Shown in pieces: positions 17,498 to 56,871 of a stretch of DNA of 64,000 nucleotides. A program made the position numbers and the translations under genes. The notes below the pieces were generated by a model. The model saw nothing but the letters and a program-made list of their open reading frames with translations, was not told where the DNA came from and made no database searches. Every line of letters starts with the position of its first letter. The stretch's first letter is position 1. The DNA comes from Gluconobacter kondonii (GTDB lineage: Bacteria > Pseudomonadota > Alphaproteobacteria > Acetobacterales > Acetobacteraceae). Where the stretch lies: positions 62,001 to 126,000 of the forward strand of contig NZ_BEWP01000006.1 of the NCBI RefSeq assembly GCF_002723995.1. The letters are read 5' to 3'.

Positions 17498-17893
17498 ATG
17501 AAGATTGATGAAATTCCTAAAGTCTACACCGTCAACGATCTTCTGGATCACCTGAAGGGTCGTATCGGTCGGGGAAAACTGATGCAGCACCTTTCTCAAG
17601 TCCCTGAGTTCGGCGATGGCCCCACGCACCGTCGCTGGTCCAACCGGATCGTTTTTTATCCCGAAGATATTACCCGTCTGCTGTCGAGCCTCGAATGTCC
17701 CTTAAAATCGTCAAACGCCACAACACGAACAACCTCTATATCCGCGGCACCATCCGGGGCACGAGCGTATGCGAAAGCACTGGAACTTCTGACCCCACGC
17801 GGGCGGAAGAATTCCGTGCCAAGCGCGAGGCCGAACTCTGGACCGAGAGCATCTATGGCAAGAAGGCAACCGTCACATTCGCCCATGCCGTAG
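17498..17893 (+). CDS. Excisionase-like DNA-binding protein overlapping the integrase
   Basis: A 131-residue protein. The first ~70 residues (VNDLLDHLKGRIGRGKLMQHL then PEDITRLLSSLECP) look like a winged-helix/AlpA-type DNA-binding domain, and position directly before the integrase suggests a recombination directionality factor. The last ~66 codons overlap the integrase start in another frame for 199 nt. The prophage 2 counterpart (21590-21964) aligns along the N-terminal domain (VPEFxxxPTHRR is shared) and also in part of the overlapping tail (AY..AL..LT), with the same frame relation. Excisionase function is inferred. Confidence 0.65.
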   Translation: MKIDEIPKVYTVNDLLDHLKGRIGRGKLMQHLSQVPEFGDGPTHRRWSNRIVFYPEDITRLLSSLECPLKSSNATTRTTSISAAPSGARAYAKALELLTPRGRKNSVPSARPNSGPRASMARRQPSHSPMP

Positions 17894-18804
17894 CGGCCTA
17901 TCTGGAGGCAGAGGAACGATCAGAGACGACCAAGTTCCACCTCCGCCGCCTTCTGAACTATTTCGGCACCACGCGACTGATCGAGATTGCACAGCCTCAG
18001 CTGGACGATGCCTATCGCAAGATTCTACGGGACGGTATTGCCGCCAGCTCCGCCACAAAAATGCGCGGCGTGCTGACACCATTGCGCGCTGTTCTAGAGT
18101 TCGCCGCGATTCGCCAATGGTGCGATCGACCGGCTTTCGACACGCCCCGCATTCAACGCGGTCGAACAACCTATCTGAAGCCGGCCGAGGTCAGGCGTCT
18201 GATTGACGCCGCCGCCCCTCACCTGAAGCCGCTGCTGACGTTCTTGGTCGGAACAGGCGTCAGGATGTCCGAAGCGTTGGATCTGGAATGGAAGGACGTT
18301 GATCTGCGCGGGAAACAGGCTGTCGTCTGGCAAAAGCAGGGGAATGAACGCAGACTGGAGCTTGTGCCAGTAGTGATGGAAGCGCTTAAAGCCCTGCCCC
18401 ACCGACACGGCCACGTTTTCCGTCCGGTCCAGATCCGTAGACGATTCAAGGGAGCCGATCCGGAGAGGATTATTGGCGAGCGCTACCATAACAACGGCCG
18501 CACTAGCGGTGGGCAGATTAAATCAGGTTGGGCGGCCGCATGTCGCAAAGCTAAGCTGCCAGGAAAATTCCGGGTCTGGATCCCCAAAGGCGAAACCACA
18601 GAGCGCCGCGTCTTCGTCCCTGACATCACTCCTCACGATCTCCGCCATACCTGGGCCACCTGGCATTACTGTCTACACAAAGATCTCCTCCGTCTGAAAG
18701 ACGAAGGAGGCTGGAGCACGATCAATATGGTGACGCGGTATGCGAAGCAGATGTCTATTGTCTATATTGCTGAAGTCAAAGAATTTATATCATCTTATAA
18801 GTGA
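17695..18804 (+). CDS. int: Tyrosine integrase of prophage 1
   Basis: A 369-residue phage integrase. Catalytic residues are visible: Arg in GTGVRMSEALDLEWKDV, HDLRHTWATWH, GGW and the nucleophile Tyr in MVTRYAK. It aligns with the prophage 2 integrase nearly end to end (both have FRAKREAELW, ERSETT, TRYAK.M), but the last 16 residues after the Tyr differ completely and are encoded by AT-rich DNA, so the 3' end from about 18754 seems to have been replaced. The start ATG lies inside the overlapping excisionase-like gene, within the codons for SLECP. Confidence 0.93.
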   Translation: MSLKIVKRHNTNNLYIRGTIRGTSVCESTGTSDPTRAEEFRAKREAELWTESIYGKKATVTFAHAVAAYLEAEERSETTKFHLRRLLNYFGTTRLIEIAQPQLDDAYRKILRDGIAASSATKMRGVLTPLRAVLEFAAIRQWCDRPAFDTPRIQRGRTTYLKPAEVRRLIDAAAPHLKPLLTFLVGTGVRMSEALDLEWKDVDLRGKQAVVWQKQGNERRLELVPVVMEALKALPHRHGHVFRPVQIRRRFKGADPERIIGERYHNNGRTSGGQIKSGWAAACRKAKLPGKFRVWIPKGETTERRVFVPDITPHDLRHTWATWHYCLHKDLLRLKDEGGWSTINMVTRYAKQMSIVYIAEVKEFISSYK

Positions 18805-18807
18805 CAG

Positions 18808-19338
18808 TTAATCATTCTTATACTCCTCACTAAAAAGTGCATGTGATCTTTTTGTTACCATAAGTAAATTAAGTAGGAAATGAGAATAAATAAATGCGGA
18901 TATGTCGGAATATAAAATTCTATTAGACATTTTTGTTTGAGTTAATATGGAATACACCAGAATAAAATAAACAAGAGATATTATACATATAAAAACAAGA
19001 TAAGATATATTACAATCCACTTCGTTTATAAGCTTATTTCTGATTTCAAACTTATACTCTACTATGATATTCTCATCTGAATTTTTTGACCACTTCCTAG
19101 TAAATATGCCAAAGATTGCAACTTGTATGTTCAATAGCAGTGCTATAAAAATCCCAAAGAATGTTATTGATGTATTATAAAAATCTTTGTCAAAGCGAAT
19201 ATGTAATAAATTTATAATTACCCCAAATATTATTGGCACCACAAAGAAAATAAAAACATCAAAATTGTTAATTTTTTTATTTTCATCTCGCAAGGTATTA
19301 AAGTGGTCTATAACAATATCTGTCATGGAGATTTTCAT
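18808..19338 (-). CDS. Four-segment membrane protein of an AT-rich two-gene cassette
   Basis: A 176-residue protein with four predicted membrane segments: residues ~27-47 (VFIFFVVPIIFGVIINLLHI), ~55-78 (SITFFGIFIALLLNIQVAIF), ~113-133 (LVFICIISLVYFILVYSIL) and ~148-163. The hydrophilic loop (~80-110) is charged. Its ATG overlaps the stop of the upstream 303-residue gene by 4 nt, so the two are made together. Base composition is much more AT-rich than the rest of the window. I recognise no family; a membrane effector paired with a cytoplasmic sensor, as in many defence systems, is a hypothesis. Confidence 0.75.
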   Translation of the reverse strand: MKISMTDIVIDHFNTLRDENKKINNFDVFIFFVVPIIFGVIINLLHIRFDKDFYNTSITFFGIFIALLLNIQVAIFGIFTRKWSKNSDENIIVEYKFEIRNKLINEVDCNISYLVFICIISLVYFILVYSILTQTKMSNRILYSDISAFIYSHFLLNLLMVTKRSHALFSEEYKND

Positions 19339-20246
19339 TCTTTTTTACCTATAAATCTATGAGAGATGCTCCTTTGTATCTCGGCAGATTGTTGAACTAG
19401 ACTCTGCAAGGTCGGATGGCCATTAGGCGAAAAATCAACATCTTCTGAAATATCTATCAGGCCAGCATCTTTATTGATTCCAAAAATAGAAACTTTACGT
19501 GTTTTTCCACCAATATTTATGCTTGCATCAGCCTCGTTAAAATCTATTCCGGAGCAAGTTATTAGAGATCCTTCAGAGTGCCTGAACTTTTCTACTACTT
19601 CTCCAAGAATGCCTATTTTCTGCTTTCGTCTAGCTGAGATGGTTAGTTCAATGTCTACTGACTCTGGCATTGTGTTTACAAGAAGATCAGCGATATCCGT
19701 GCTTGTGTTTCTTTTTATGAAAGTAACTTTTTTGACAGGAGAGTCCTTTAGAACACCATCTGTAAAATCCTGAGGAATTACTCTTTGGAACCATAGTTTG
19801 TATCCGGGATGAGTCCTTTCGAACCACTCTCGCAATACAGTCCAAGTCAATGACACGCACGATTTGCCCGAAAAAGTTTGTAGAGATAGAAATATGTTTC
19901 TATCATCAGGCATCCAAAAATCATAGAAAAGAGGTATTTCTTCGACGTCTGATGACTTTCTAGCATATTTTTTAGTCTTGGTTCTAAGGTCTTTTATAGT
20001 GCTCTCATATCCAAAGGTGCCATAATCTATATATCCATATATTCTATTTGGATCATTATTAAGTTTTTCAATTACCCAGCTTCTCTCAGTTTTGTGGTCT
20101 GCAACATGAGTATTTTGTCCCTGAATGAATTCACTAACAAAATTCACCAGCTCGTTGTTCTTTTTGTATTTTACTTTTTCTACTGGGTTACTGGATTCCT
20201 CGTAAACGCTTATAGCATAAATGCGTAGACCAATTGATGCGGGCAT
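19335..20246 (-). CDS. Unrecognised 303-residue protein of the AT-rich cassette
   Basis: A soluble alpha/beta protein starting MPASIGLRIYAISVYEES. Visible blocks are IYGYIDYGTFGYESTIKDL (residues ~68-86), EIPLFYDFWMPDDRNIFLSL (~102-121), VKKVTFIKRNTSTDIADLLV (~172-191) and a C-terminal part with SINIGGKTRKVSIFGI and DGHPTLQSL-type sequence (here NGHPTLQSLVQQ). From memory this resembles an unnamed family found in mobile regions of diverse bacteria, but I cannot name it. No nuclease, kinase or nucleotide-binding motif is evident. It is the first gene of the cassette, with GGA upstream of the ATG. Confidence 0.75.
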   Translation of the reverse strand: MPASIGLRIYAISVYEESSNPVEKVKYKKNNELVNFVSEFIQGQNTHVADHKTERSWVIEKLNNDPNRIYGYIDYGTFGYESTIKDLRTKTKKYARKSSDVEEIPLFYDFWMPDDRNIFLSLQTFSGKSCVSLTWTVLREWFERTHPGYKLWFQRVIPQDFTDGVLKDSPVKKVTFIKRNTSTDIADLLVNTMPESVDIELTISARRKQKIGILGEVVEKFRHSEGSLITCSGIDFNEADASINIGGKTRKVSIFGINKDAGLIDISEDVDFSPNGHPTLQSLVQQSAEIQRSISHRFIGKKE

Positions 20247-20548
20247 AGTCTATTTCCAAATCCCTCGAAGTGTTCGCCGAGGCTAACTCATGTTTCAAAC
20301 TAAGACTATATGAATCGCAAACCAAATTTTTCTCTGACTTCTTTGGTTTATGGCTAAATTCATTTCAGGAATATGAAATGAATTGGACGCGATAAGAATC
20401 GCCTTAGAGCGCACAAGTCTTCAGGGGTATCCGGATTTTCTCCAGATTCATCGCCGATTCAAACAGGCAGATTCAATCTGAAACGACATATAGATAAAGT
20501 CTGAACATCATCACTGATGATGAATTATATGTATTTTTAAGGAGTTAG
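20247..20548. other. AT-rich non-coding flank of the cassette
   Basis: No gene is visible. It contains a perfect 10-bp inverted repeat (AATTCATTTC/GAAATGAATT, 20357-20366 and 20375-20384, 8-nt gap) and a small palindrome ATCATC-ACT-GATGAT near 20506-20520. One or both may be control sites of the leftward cassette, whose promoter must lie here. Confidence 0.5.
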
Positions 20549-20598
20549 GATGGTGGGCGCGACAGGGATTGAACCTGTGACCCCTGCCGTGTGAAGGC
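20549..20598. repeat. attL: 50-bp copy of the tRNA-Val 3' end
   Basis: Identical to 56795-56844. It covers the tRNA 3' terminus through the anticodon loop/stem region and ends at GTGTGAAGGC, after which the two copies diverge. It marks the left junction of prophage 2. Confidence 0.95.
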
Positions 20599-20642: not shown

Positions 20643-21770
20643 CTAATTTCCTTTGCGGGCACCGATTTGGCACGTCAGGACAATATCAGGCCAGTCCGTG
20701 TGTGCAAGCCAGCGGATCACGCCTTCCCGATGATAGTCAGGCATCTTCTTGGCATAGCGTGTCACGATCCCAATCGTCTGCCAGCCCCCCTCTTCCTTTA
20801 GTCGTAATAGATCTCGATGAATGCAGTAGTGCCACGTCGCCCATGTATGGCGCAGGCAATGCGGTGTGAGGTCGGGCACGAAAGTCCGTTTCTCTGTGAG
20901 AGATCCTTTGGGTATCCAGATTCTCTCTCGGCCGGGCAGACCAGATCTCTTGCAGGCGTAAGCCCAAGCATTCTTGATCTGACCGCCACCATTGCGTCCG
21001 GTGTCATGGTACGCGTCGCCCATCGCTTGGCCGCGATATGGCCTAAATACCCTTCCCTCTCTGTGTGGTAGTCCACTTAAAGCCAGCACGACAACGGGCG
21101 GCAAATCAATGTGACGTTCTGTATCCTGTTTTTGCCATACTACGACGCGTGCGGCTGGCAGATCCACGTCTCGCCAATCCAATTCCAACGCTTCAGACAT
21201 GCGAGCGCCAGTGCCGATCAGGAATACGAGCAGCGGCCGTACATGGGGCGCGGCCTCATTTACCAGGTCCGTTGCCTCGTTTGGTCTCAGGAACTGCATT
21301 TTCGTACGGGGGATCTTCGGGCTTGCGAAGGCTGGCTTGTCGCACCAGTCTCTCAGCGCTGCAAATTCTAGAATGGCCCGAAGGGGAGTTAAAACGCCCC
21401 GGAGCTTTGTGGCCGGAGCTGCTGCCGCTCCCTTCGAGAGAATGGCTTTATATGCCTGGTCGACGTCTTCTTGCTTGATGGCATTCAGCTTGCGCGTACC
21501 AAAATGCCGCAGTAGCCGTTCGATATGAAACAACGTCGTCTCGCTCCGCTGTTCAGCCTCCAGATAAGCTGAAACGGCGGATGCAAAAGTTACGACCGCG
21601 CGTTTGCCGTAGACTGATTCTTCCCAGAGTTCCGCTTCCCGTTTTGCTCTGAAAGCCTCTGCCTGCTGCGGGTCAGGTGTGCCAGCGCATTCGTATATGC
21701 TTTGTCCTCGGACGGTTCCGCGGATGTAAAGCGATTCGCGGCCTTTCCGCTTGACGACTGACAGGGGCAT
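20643..21770 (-). CDS. int: Tyrosine integrase of prophage 2
   Basis: A 375-residue integrase with Arg in GTGARMSEALELDWRDV, HCLRHTWATWH, GGW and Tyr in IVTRYAKKM. It is a clear homologue of the prophage 1 integrase but has a full C-terminal tail (~35 residues past the Tyr). It lies next to attL with its 3' end facing the core repeat, so it is the enzyme that inserts into tRNA-Val. The ATG at 21770 is inside the excisionase-like gene, overlapping it for 181 nt, in the same frame relation as in prophage 1. Confidence 0.95.
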   Translation of the reverse strand: MPLSVVKRKGRESLYIRGTVRGQSIYECAGTPDPQQAEAFRAKREAELWEESVYGKRAVVTFASAVSAYLEAEQRSETTLFHIERLLRHFGTRKLNAIKQEDVDQAYKAILSKGAAAAPATKLRGVLTPLRAILEFAALRDWCDKPAFASPKIPRTKMQFLRPNEATDLVNEAAPHVRPLLVFLIGTGARMSEALELDWRDVDLPAARVVVWQKQDTERHIDLPPVVVLALSGLPHREGRVFRPYRGQAMGDAYHDTGRNGGGQIKNAWAYACKRSGLPGRERIWIPKGSLTEKRTFVPDLTPHCLRHTWATWHYCIHRDLLRLKEEGGWQTIGIVTRYAKKMPDYHREGVIRWLAHTDWPDIVLTCQIGARKGN

Positions 21771-56557: not shown

Positions 56558-56794
56558 ACTCGGGGCCTGCGGGGTCAGGTGCAGGCGTGTTTACTCAAAT
56601 GAGATCAAACTTTTGACGGTTTCCCAAGAGTTCAGAAGATCGGAACTCACTCTTCGTCGACTCGGAATTTCATGGCACGGATTTGGCACGGATTGGGGTG
56701 CCGCGACTCGAATATCCGAATTTTAGTTCGTACTAAAACGAGCTTAATCTTATTGATTTTGTGATGGATGAAATGGCTGAAATCCGCCATTTAA
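56558..56794. promoter_or_regulatory. Attachment-region DNA with integrase arm-type repeats
   Basis: No gene is visible. GGCACGGATT is directly repeated at 56674-56683 and 56685-56694 (11-bp period), with GGGGTGCC nearby. Their place about 100 bp inside the right junction fits arm-type integrase binding sites (inference). Confidence 0.5.
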
Positions 56795-56844
56795 GATGGT
56801 GGGCGCGACAGGGATTGAACCTGTGACCCCTGCCGTGTGAAGGC
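56795..56844. repeat. attR: 50-bp direct repeat within tRNA-Val
   Basis: Identical to 20549-20598. It supplies the 3' part of the tRNA gene, so integration leaves the tRNA intact. Confidence 0.95.
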
Positions 56845-56871
56845 AGTGCTCTACCGCTGAGCTACGCGCCC
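56797..56871 (-). tRNA. tRNA-Val (anticodon CAC)
   Basis: A 75-nt cloverleaf: acceptor GGGCGCG/CGCGCCC, D arm GCTC/GAGC, anticodon stem CTGCC/GGCAG with loop TTCACAC (anticodon CAC), T arm ACAGG-TTCAATC-CCTGT and an encoded CCA end. The 3' half is the target of prophage 2. Confidence 0.97.

Follow-up and report, generated by a model that had tools for sequence, protein, structure and literature searches.

Rex-type exclusion is known from a handful of phages. A 2026 paper puts the RexAB-like systems described at only five, by its authors' count, and what the lambda Rex sensor detects is, according to the same source, still unknown (PMC12894663). Lambda RexA has a two-domain fold like that of RdgC (PMC11077077). 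In the RexABpp system of Pseudomonas putida prophage P1, both genes, PP_5643 and PP_5644, are needed for defence; RexApp is a DNA-binding protein similar to 8TWQ, overexpression of RexApp leads RexBpp to damage the membranes of some of the cells, and no RexApp-RexBpp binding was seen in two-hybrid tests (PMC12894663). Defence has also been shown for the Rex-like systems of actinophages (PMC6426596, PMC7542560), and a "DUF4747/CarolAnn prophage system" is found behind capK-capS in 17 of 443 cases (PMC13373217). Here we describe a two-gene cassette, A/B, in a stretch of 64,000 nucleotides from Gluconobacter kondonii (contig NZ_BEWP01000006.1, positions 62,001 to 126,000; hereafter the window). 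A/B is a real, conserved and mobile two-gene family with a Rex-like architecture, and we believe, with moderate confidence, that it is a prophage-borne, Rex-like abortive-infection system.

Gene A (19335-20246, minus strand) encodes a soluble protein of 303 amino acids, a proposed RexA-like sensor of the PHROG 15676 family, as judged from its open reading frame (ORF), a hydrophobicity scan and a PHROG match. Gene B (18808-19338, minus strand) encodes a membrane protein of 176 amino acids, the proposed effector, delineated by its ORF and the same scan. The two lie head to tail, with the four bases ATGA common to the stop of A and the start of B, just as an earlier note made from the letters of this DNA had described. 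Both belong to an AT-rich cargo block (18754-20548), whose limits are the last codons of an integrase gene, int1, on one side and a point just short of an attachment-site (att) copy at 20553-20595 on the other. The guanine-plus-cytosine (GC) content in 500-base windows is 0.27-0.38 across the block and 0.51-0.65 in most surrounding windows; for the pair itself it is 0.331 vs 0.565 for 20 kb of flanks, in agreement with the AT-richness claimed in the note. A promoter scan of the cassette was uninformative, giving three promoter-like sites vs 8.5 expected in shuffles. The observation of the A/B cassette is confirmed as real, and chance is excluded because relatives of A, at 30-42% identity, likewise have A and B paired and arranged as here.

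We collected 64 distinct A proteins. B lies directly downstream on the same strand in all 62 that have room for it, the other two lying so near a contig end that only 67 and 233 bases follow. Separation of the genes in most genomes, which the earlier note had named as a refutation, is thus not what was found. No locus with B but without A was seen, though all loci were collected by A and lone copies of B elsewhere were not sought. The overlap is of four bases in 36 of the 62; larger overlaps reflect longer start calls, and a gap of 388 comes from a Sphingosinicella metagenome-assembled genome (L025, 3923-4845) in which two overlapping ORFs in different frames take the place of a single gene A while B is intact. 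Either a broken gene or an assembly error would account for that split.

Relatives of A were found in 3 of 100 related genomes; for genomes of the class the count was 3 of 385 and for those of the phylum 8 of 398, the window's own genome being included each time. GTDB contigs gave 19 loci. Gene A was present in none of the 25 other genomes of the same genus among the 100. Viral contigs gave 9 + 17 = 26 loci, one of the nine being the window's own contig. Four Acinetobacter plasmids carry relatives (two in a first search, the same two plus two more in a second), with the pair near a BrnT/BrnA pair, and so do two Pseudomonas filamentous (Pf) phages. In genome samples around G495 and G1095, which overlap, relatives occurred in 1 of 25, 7 of 398 and 8 of 398 genomes; these samples are probably Pseudomonadaceae, to judge by likeness to the Pf-phage protein. 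The carriers of the pair therefore comprise tailed prophage contigs, filamentous phages, plasmids and other bacterial contigs. The neighbours of nine of the GTDB-contig loci include five tyrosine integrases and two resolvases among 74 proteins, these 74 having been scanned out of 157 listed for all 19 loci. Together with the viral, Pf and plasmid copies, these neighbours bear out, for many loci, the association with mobile elements, the absence of which the note had set down as evidence against a defence role.

The reach of single searches varied with the query. Translated searches (tblastn) of phages with window A and of plasmids with B gave no match, nor did the protein of locus L028 in phages or the Pf protein alone in viral contigs; the Pf phages were reached only with an Acinetobacter protein as query. 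The alignments of alpha-type and gamma-type A match with 99.9% probability over 302 columns, so we treat them as one family. In phage PfAC16 the pair is ORF1-ORF2, adjoining the repressor. Two Pseudomonas filamentous phage records (L038, 412-1883; L039, 2524-3995) hold it as unnamed ORFs beside a repressor; their identical hidden Markov model scores suggest that they carry the same pair.

Low GC content travels with the family. Wherever more than 6 kb of flank was available, the pair had the lower GC content (44 of 44 rows, mean difference 0.159), and this in hosts of very different GC content. The rows are partly redundant: the window's own locus appears three times (window, L002, L029), and L021/L031 and L038/L039 hold the same pairs. 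AT-richness is a trait of the A/B family and not of the window copy alone.

The two proteins keep their characters across the family. Of 59 distinct A proteins, 57, window A among them, lack any hydrophobic segment and two have a single one; of 58 distinct B proteins, 54 have four segments and the remaining four have three. The four membrane segments claimed for B in the note are therefore right for the family, but window B has only three over the cut-off (29-47, 60-78 and 114-132); the stretch near 143-160 is hydrophobic by eye and falls below it, and four segments are probable in window B as well. Conserved stretches include YGT-x-GFES, EEIPLY-x-FW, QSFQGRSC and GHP in A, and KI...H..TL, IF-ALLL and MV-KR in B.

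The note did not recognise A, and the libraries placed neither A nor B in a known metabolic family, a match that the note had listed among its refutations. For window A and B the only informative entry was PHROG 15676, a sequence family of A that has no function in PHROGs; 17 of 20 A members scanned matched phrog_15676, the best with an E value of 8.6e-16, and window A only with 0.0034. PADLOC-DB 2.0.0 gave no match for window A or B and two single weak ones (E 0.007 and 0.024) for the 20 A members, and a PDB sequence search with profiles of A and B found nothing up to E 1. We discounted weak Pfam matches of B (ABC2_membrane_4, MASE5 and BPD_transp_2) as similarity of the kind that membrane helices show in general, that to ABC2_membrane_4 reaching E 0.00047 and 20.6 bits, under a cut-off of 27. 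A metabolic, transporter or integrase-accessory role was likewise set aside, for want of a family match and in view of the strict pairing. We recognised no publication that describes the A/B family or names phrog 15676 in literature coverage that left out preprints and most subscription papers.

The cassette sits in a position that the note called a common one for defence genes. The tyrosine integrase int1 (17695-18804, plus strand; Pfam Phage_integrase, E 1.1e-18) belongs to the upstream prophage, and the att copy at 20553-20595 (plus strand), part of tRNA-Val, forms that prophage's right end; the claim that the genes lie between an integrase and an attachment site thus holds. This copy is an exact 43-base repeat of 56799-56841, with none expected by chance, and the latter falls within the integration site, a tRNA-Val(CAC) gene found with ARAGORN (56797-56871, minus strand). 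Altogether there are three att copies, at G000:C6 37320-37377 (outside the window) and at 20541-20598 and 56791-56844 of the window, spaced by about 45 and 36 kb, the one outside the window lying 45 kb upstream of the middle one. From these three copies it appears that two tandem prophages occupy a single tRNA-Val site and that the cassette lies at the right-hand margin of the upstream element. The note had placed it between two prophages: the tandem prophages are there, but the att copies put the cassette inside the upstream element. The downstream element begins with its own integrase, int2 (20643-21770, minus strand; outside the cassette), which is 61% identical to int1 over 353 amino acids and faces it across the middle att copy. 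Of seven ORFs scanned in the upstream element, four match a head-maturation protease, a portal protein, a large terminase and a DnaB-type helicase, a fifth has a RusA-like match and two have none.

The same slot is variable in related prophages. A genus search with int1 covered 26 genomes, the window's own included, and we read the 1.5 kb behind the integrase in ten loci, our own plus nine siblings, among further strong integrase matches. Our own slot holds the A/B cassette. It is empty in four of the nine siblings (L105, L107, L108 and L109), where the att core, matched with up to four substitutions, follows 164-207 bases behind the integrase. One sibling (L104) has, at 183-1464 on the minus strand, a DUF488 protein gene overlapping a gene for a 263-residue protein without a Pfam match, at a GC content of 0.41-0.43 and with att at 1460; this is a candidate for another cargo pair. 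In three more (L106, L110 and L111) the core is inverted and lies 101-104 bases behind the integrase. In the last, L103, whose integrase is 94% identical to int1, the slot has at least 1.5 kb of AT-rich DNA, in which there is neither an ORF of 80 amino acids nor a core. Beyond VTRYAKQM/VTRYAKxM the integrase tails diverge, our own being most like that of L103 by eye. The last 16 codons of int1, after VTRYAKQM (18754-18804), are AT-rich DNA unlike the sibling tails, and the end of the gene may have been exchanged.

We suggest that A/B works as follows. A would be a soluble sensor, probably a DNA-binding dimer of RexA type, that stays inactive in the lysogen. On infection by another phage, A would recognise a product of that phage, either an early protein or DNA from replication or recombination, and switch on B, a putative four-helix oligomer of the inner membrane. 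B would then make the membrane leaky, growth would stop and the infecting phage would fail to multiply, so that neighbouring lysogens and the resident prophage would be protected. We favour this Rex-like reading because of the strict A-B pairing, the four-helix B, the mobile carriers, the variable slot, the position beside CI in some loci and a weak similarity of A to RexA and to Butters gp30, and because the like-built P. putida pair needs both genes for defence and its RexB damages membranes (PMC12894663). A role in defence is inferred. The note's hypothesis has been strengthened and made more specific, and is partly supported. Its coupling of a sensor-like protein with a small membrane protein is indeed the plan of Rex systems, for which defence has been shown (PMC12894663, PMC6426596), but to call the system new, without qualification, goes too far for one that would work like a known kind.

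Several results weigh against a Rex-like reading. The window pair adjoins int and att and not cI, unlike lambda Rex. No Pfam RexA, RexB or DUF4747 match was found for window A or B or for 20 A members (at E up to 10 for RexA). Profile comparison gave a probability of 0.3% for 26 A against four RexA sequences and of 0.2% for 25 B against three RexB, so that B shows no kinship to RexB. Although a larger comparison, described below, raised the score of A against RexA, A scores as high (29.5) against its own reversed profile, alpha-type A alone reaches only 16.9 against RexA, and A against the DUF4747 profile reaches 18.5, a score attained by 10 of 200 shuffles. Lambda RexA, compared singly with the A profile, scores 11.4, below 31 of 47 unrelated neighbour proteins that served as the single-sequence null (top 18.5).

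The larger comparison set 59 A against 13 RexA sequences and gave a score of 28.0 (P 0.0037, probability 8.9%), reached by none of 200 column shuffles (top 24.3); the alignment is co-linear, with A columns 156-231 on RexA 130-212. Eight gamma-type A against RexA gave 0.3%. Three RexA relatives compared singly scored 20.4 (over 18 columns only), 20.0 and 19.3, above all 47 null proteins, and a fourth 18.4 over 14 columns, reached by one of the 47. One DUF4747 protein scored 24.0, again above all 47; the other three were reached by 4, 5 and 19. Butters gp30 scored 27.4, reached by none of 200 shuffles and none of the 47 proteins, with an hhalign probability of 7.9%, which is not significant. As a control, RexA against DUF4747, reported as related (PMC6426596), scored only 15.7; alignments as thin as these leave the method with little power. 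Judged by these scores, the sequence similarity of A to RexA is weak and uneven, and kinship no more than plausible.

It is unlikely, in our judgement, that A/B is a membrane-acting defence pair outside the Rex lineage, in which an unrelated sensor or signalling protein A gates B and the likeness to Rex is a convergent layout. Such a pair would agree with the want of a library match for either protein, with the lack of profile similarity between B and RexB and with an A-RexA score no higher than that of A against its own reverse, but it would leave unexplained a co-linear, if weak, similarity to both RexA and Butters gp30 that exceeds 200 of 200 shuffles in each case. It fits poorly, too, with the CI-A-B order at eight of the 64 distinct loci, where a CI-like ORF lies upstream on the same strand, 31-1217 bases away (a lower bound, as many flanks are short; in two more loci such an ORF lies downstream on the other strand, and that of L117 is Pfam Phage_CI_repr). 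A somewhat smaller chance attaches to an inverted arrangement of the Butters type, with soluble A as the toxic antiphage effector and B keeping it inactive until infection. Here gp30 is the protein with the highest score to the A profile among those compared singly, and gp30/gp31 have the same order as A/B, with four segments in gp31 by the same scan; yet just a single system of this type has been described (PMC12894663), and the gp30 score lacks significance by hhalign.

Two explanations remain. A pair that mainly tunes the prophage's own switch, or blocks superinfection by the same phage, and does so with no abortive infection, would suit the CI adjacency and recalls RexA, which biases lambda's switch (PMC11077077), but we hold it improbable: the window pair lies at the int-att edge, at a distance from any regulatory gene seen, the pair occurs on plasmids too, and the membrane partner would be left without a role. 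Least probable, and very much so, is that the pair serves to maintain prophages and plasmids in the manner of a toxin-antitoxin module, B being the toxin and A the antitoxin. The overlapping genes and the nearby BrnT/BrnA pair on the Acinetobacter plasmids speak for it. Against it, antitoxins are seldom as large as A, the libraries gave no match to a known toxin-antitoxin family, and either gene of the similarly built P. putida pair could be deleted singly (PMC12894663).

We advance a wider claim tentatively, as slightly more doubtful than not: A/B would be a large branch of the Rex-type exclusion systems that had no name before, its effectors would form a family of their own without relation to RexB, and it would extend across tailed prophages of alpha- and gammaproteobacteria, Pf phages and plasmids, with a higher AT content than its surroundings at every locus measured. 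If this is true, lambda Rex would be one outlier of a common strategy, in which a DNA-clamp sensor is combined with interchangeable membrane effectors. Already 64 distinct A sequences share the plan of RexAB, on tailed prophages, filamentous phages and plasmids; were the proposed mechanism correct, Rex-type exclusion would be far commoner than thought, and a version from an easily handled bacterium or phage could help to find what a Rex sensor detects.

The plan of A/B recurs in known systems. Lambda RexA and RexB (PF15969/PF15968) are prophage-borne and come in the same order, sensor and then four-helix protein, with 279 and 144 amino acids vs 303 and 176 for A and B, and our hydrophobicity scan finds no segment in lambda RexA and four in lambda RexB. 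Where CI is adjacent, the CI-A-B order resembles lambda cI-rexA-rexB. RexABpp consists, as A/B does, of a soluble protein followed by one with four predicted membrane helices, and lies downstream of a CI-like repressor (PMC12894663), as do the eight A/B loci. Of the RexBpp residues named in that paper, W25, F35, L55, T103, S145, G153 and Y181, at most three of seven occur in any B checked; 6 of 58 have W25 in the matching position, and no B with all seven was found in the samples around G495 and G1095. Some DUF4747 (PF15931) genes, like A, have a small membrane gene behind them. PF15931 was not found in the window's genome, and further members sought in viral contigs gave none; in all four loci fetched (L098, 282-1672, minus; L099, 807-2382, minus; L100, 1441-3004, plus; L101, 659-2169, minus) the DUF4747 gene is followed by an ORF with hydrophobic segments (3, 4, 3 and 4), and in L098 a CI/S24 repressor gene precedes the two, giving the lambda cI-rexA-rexB order. 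The actinophage systems Sbash gp30/31, CarolAnn gp44/43 and Butters gp30/31, of which Butters was compared by sequence and the others by description, likewise join a soluble protein to a four-pass membrane protein, as A/B does.

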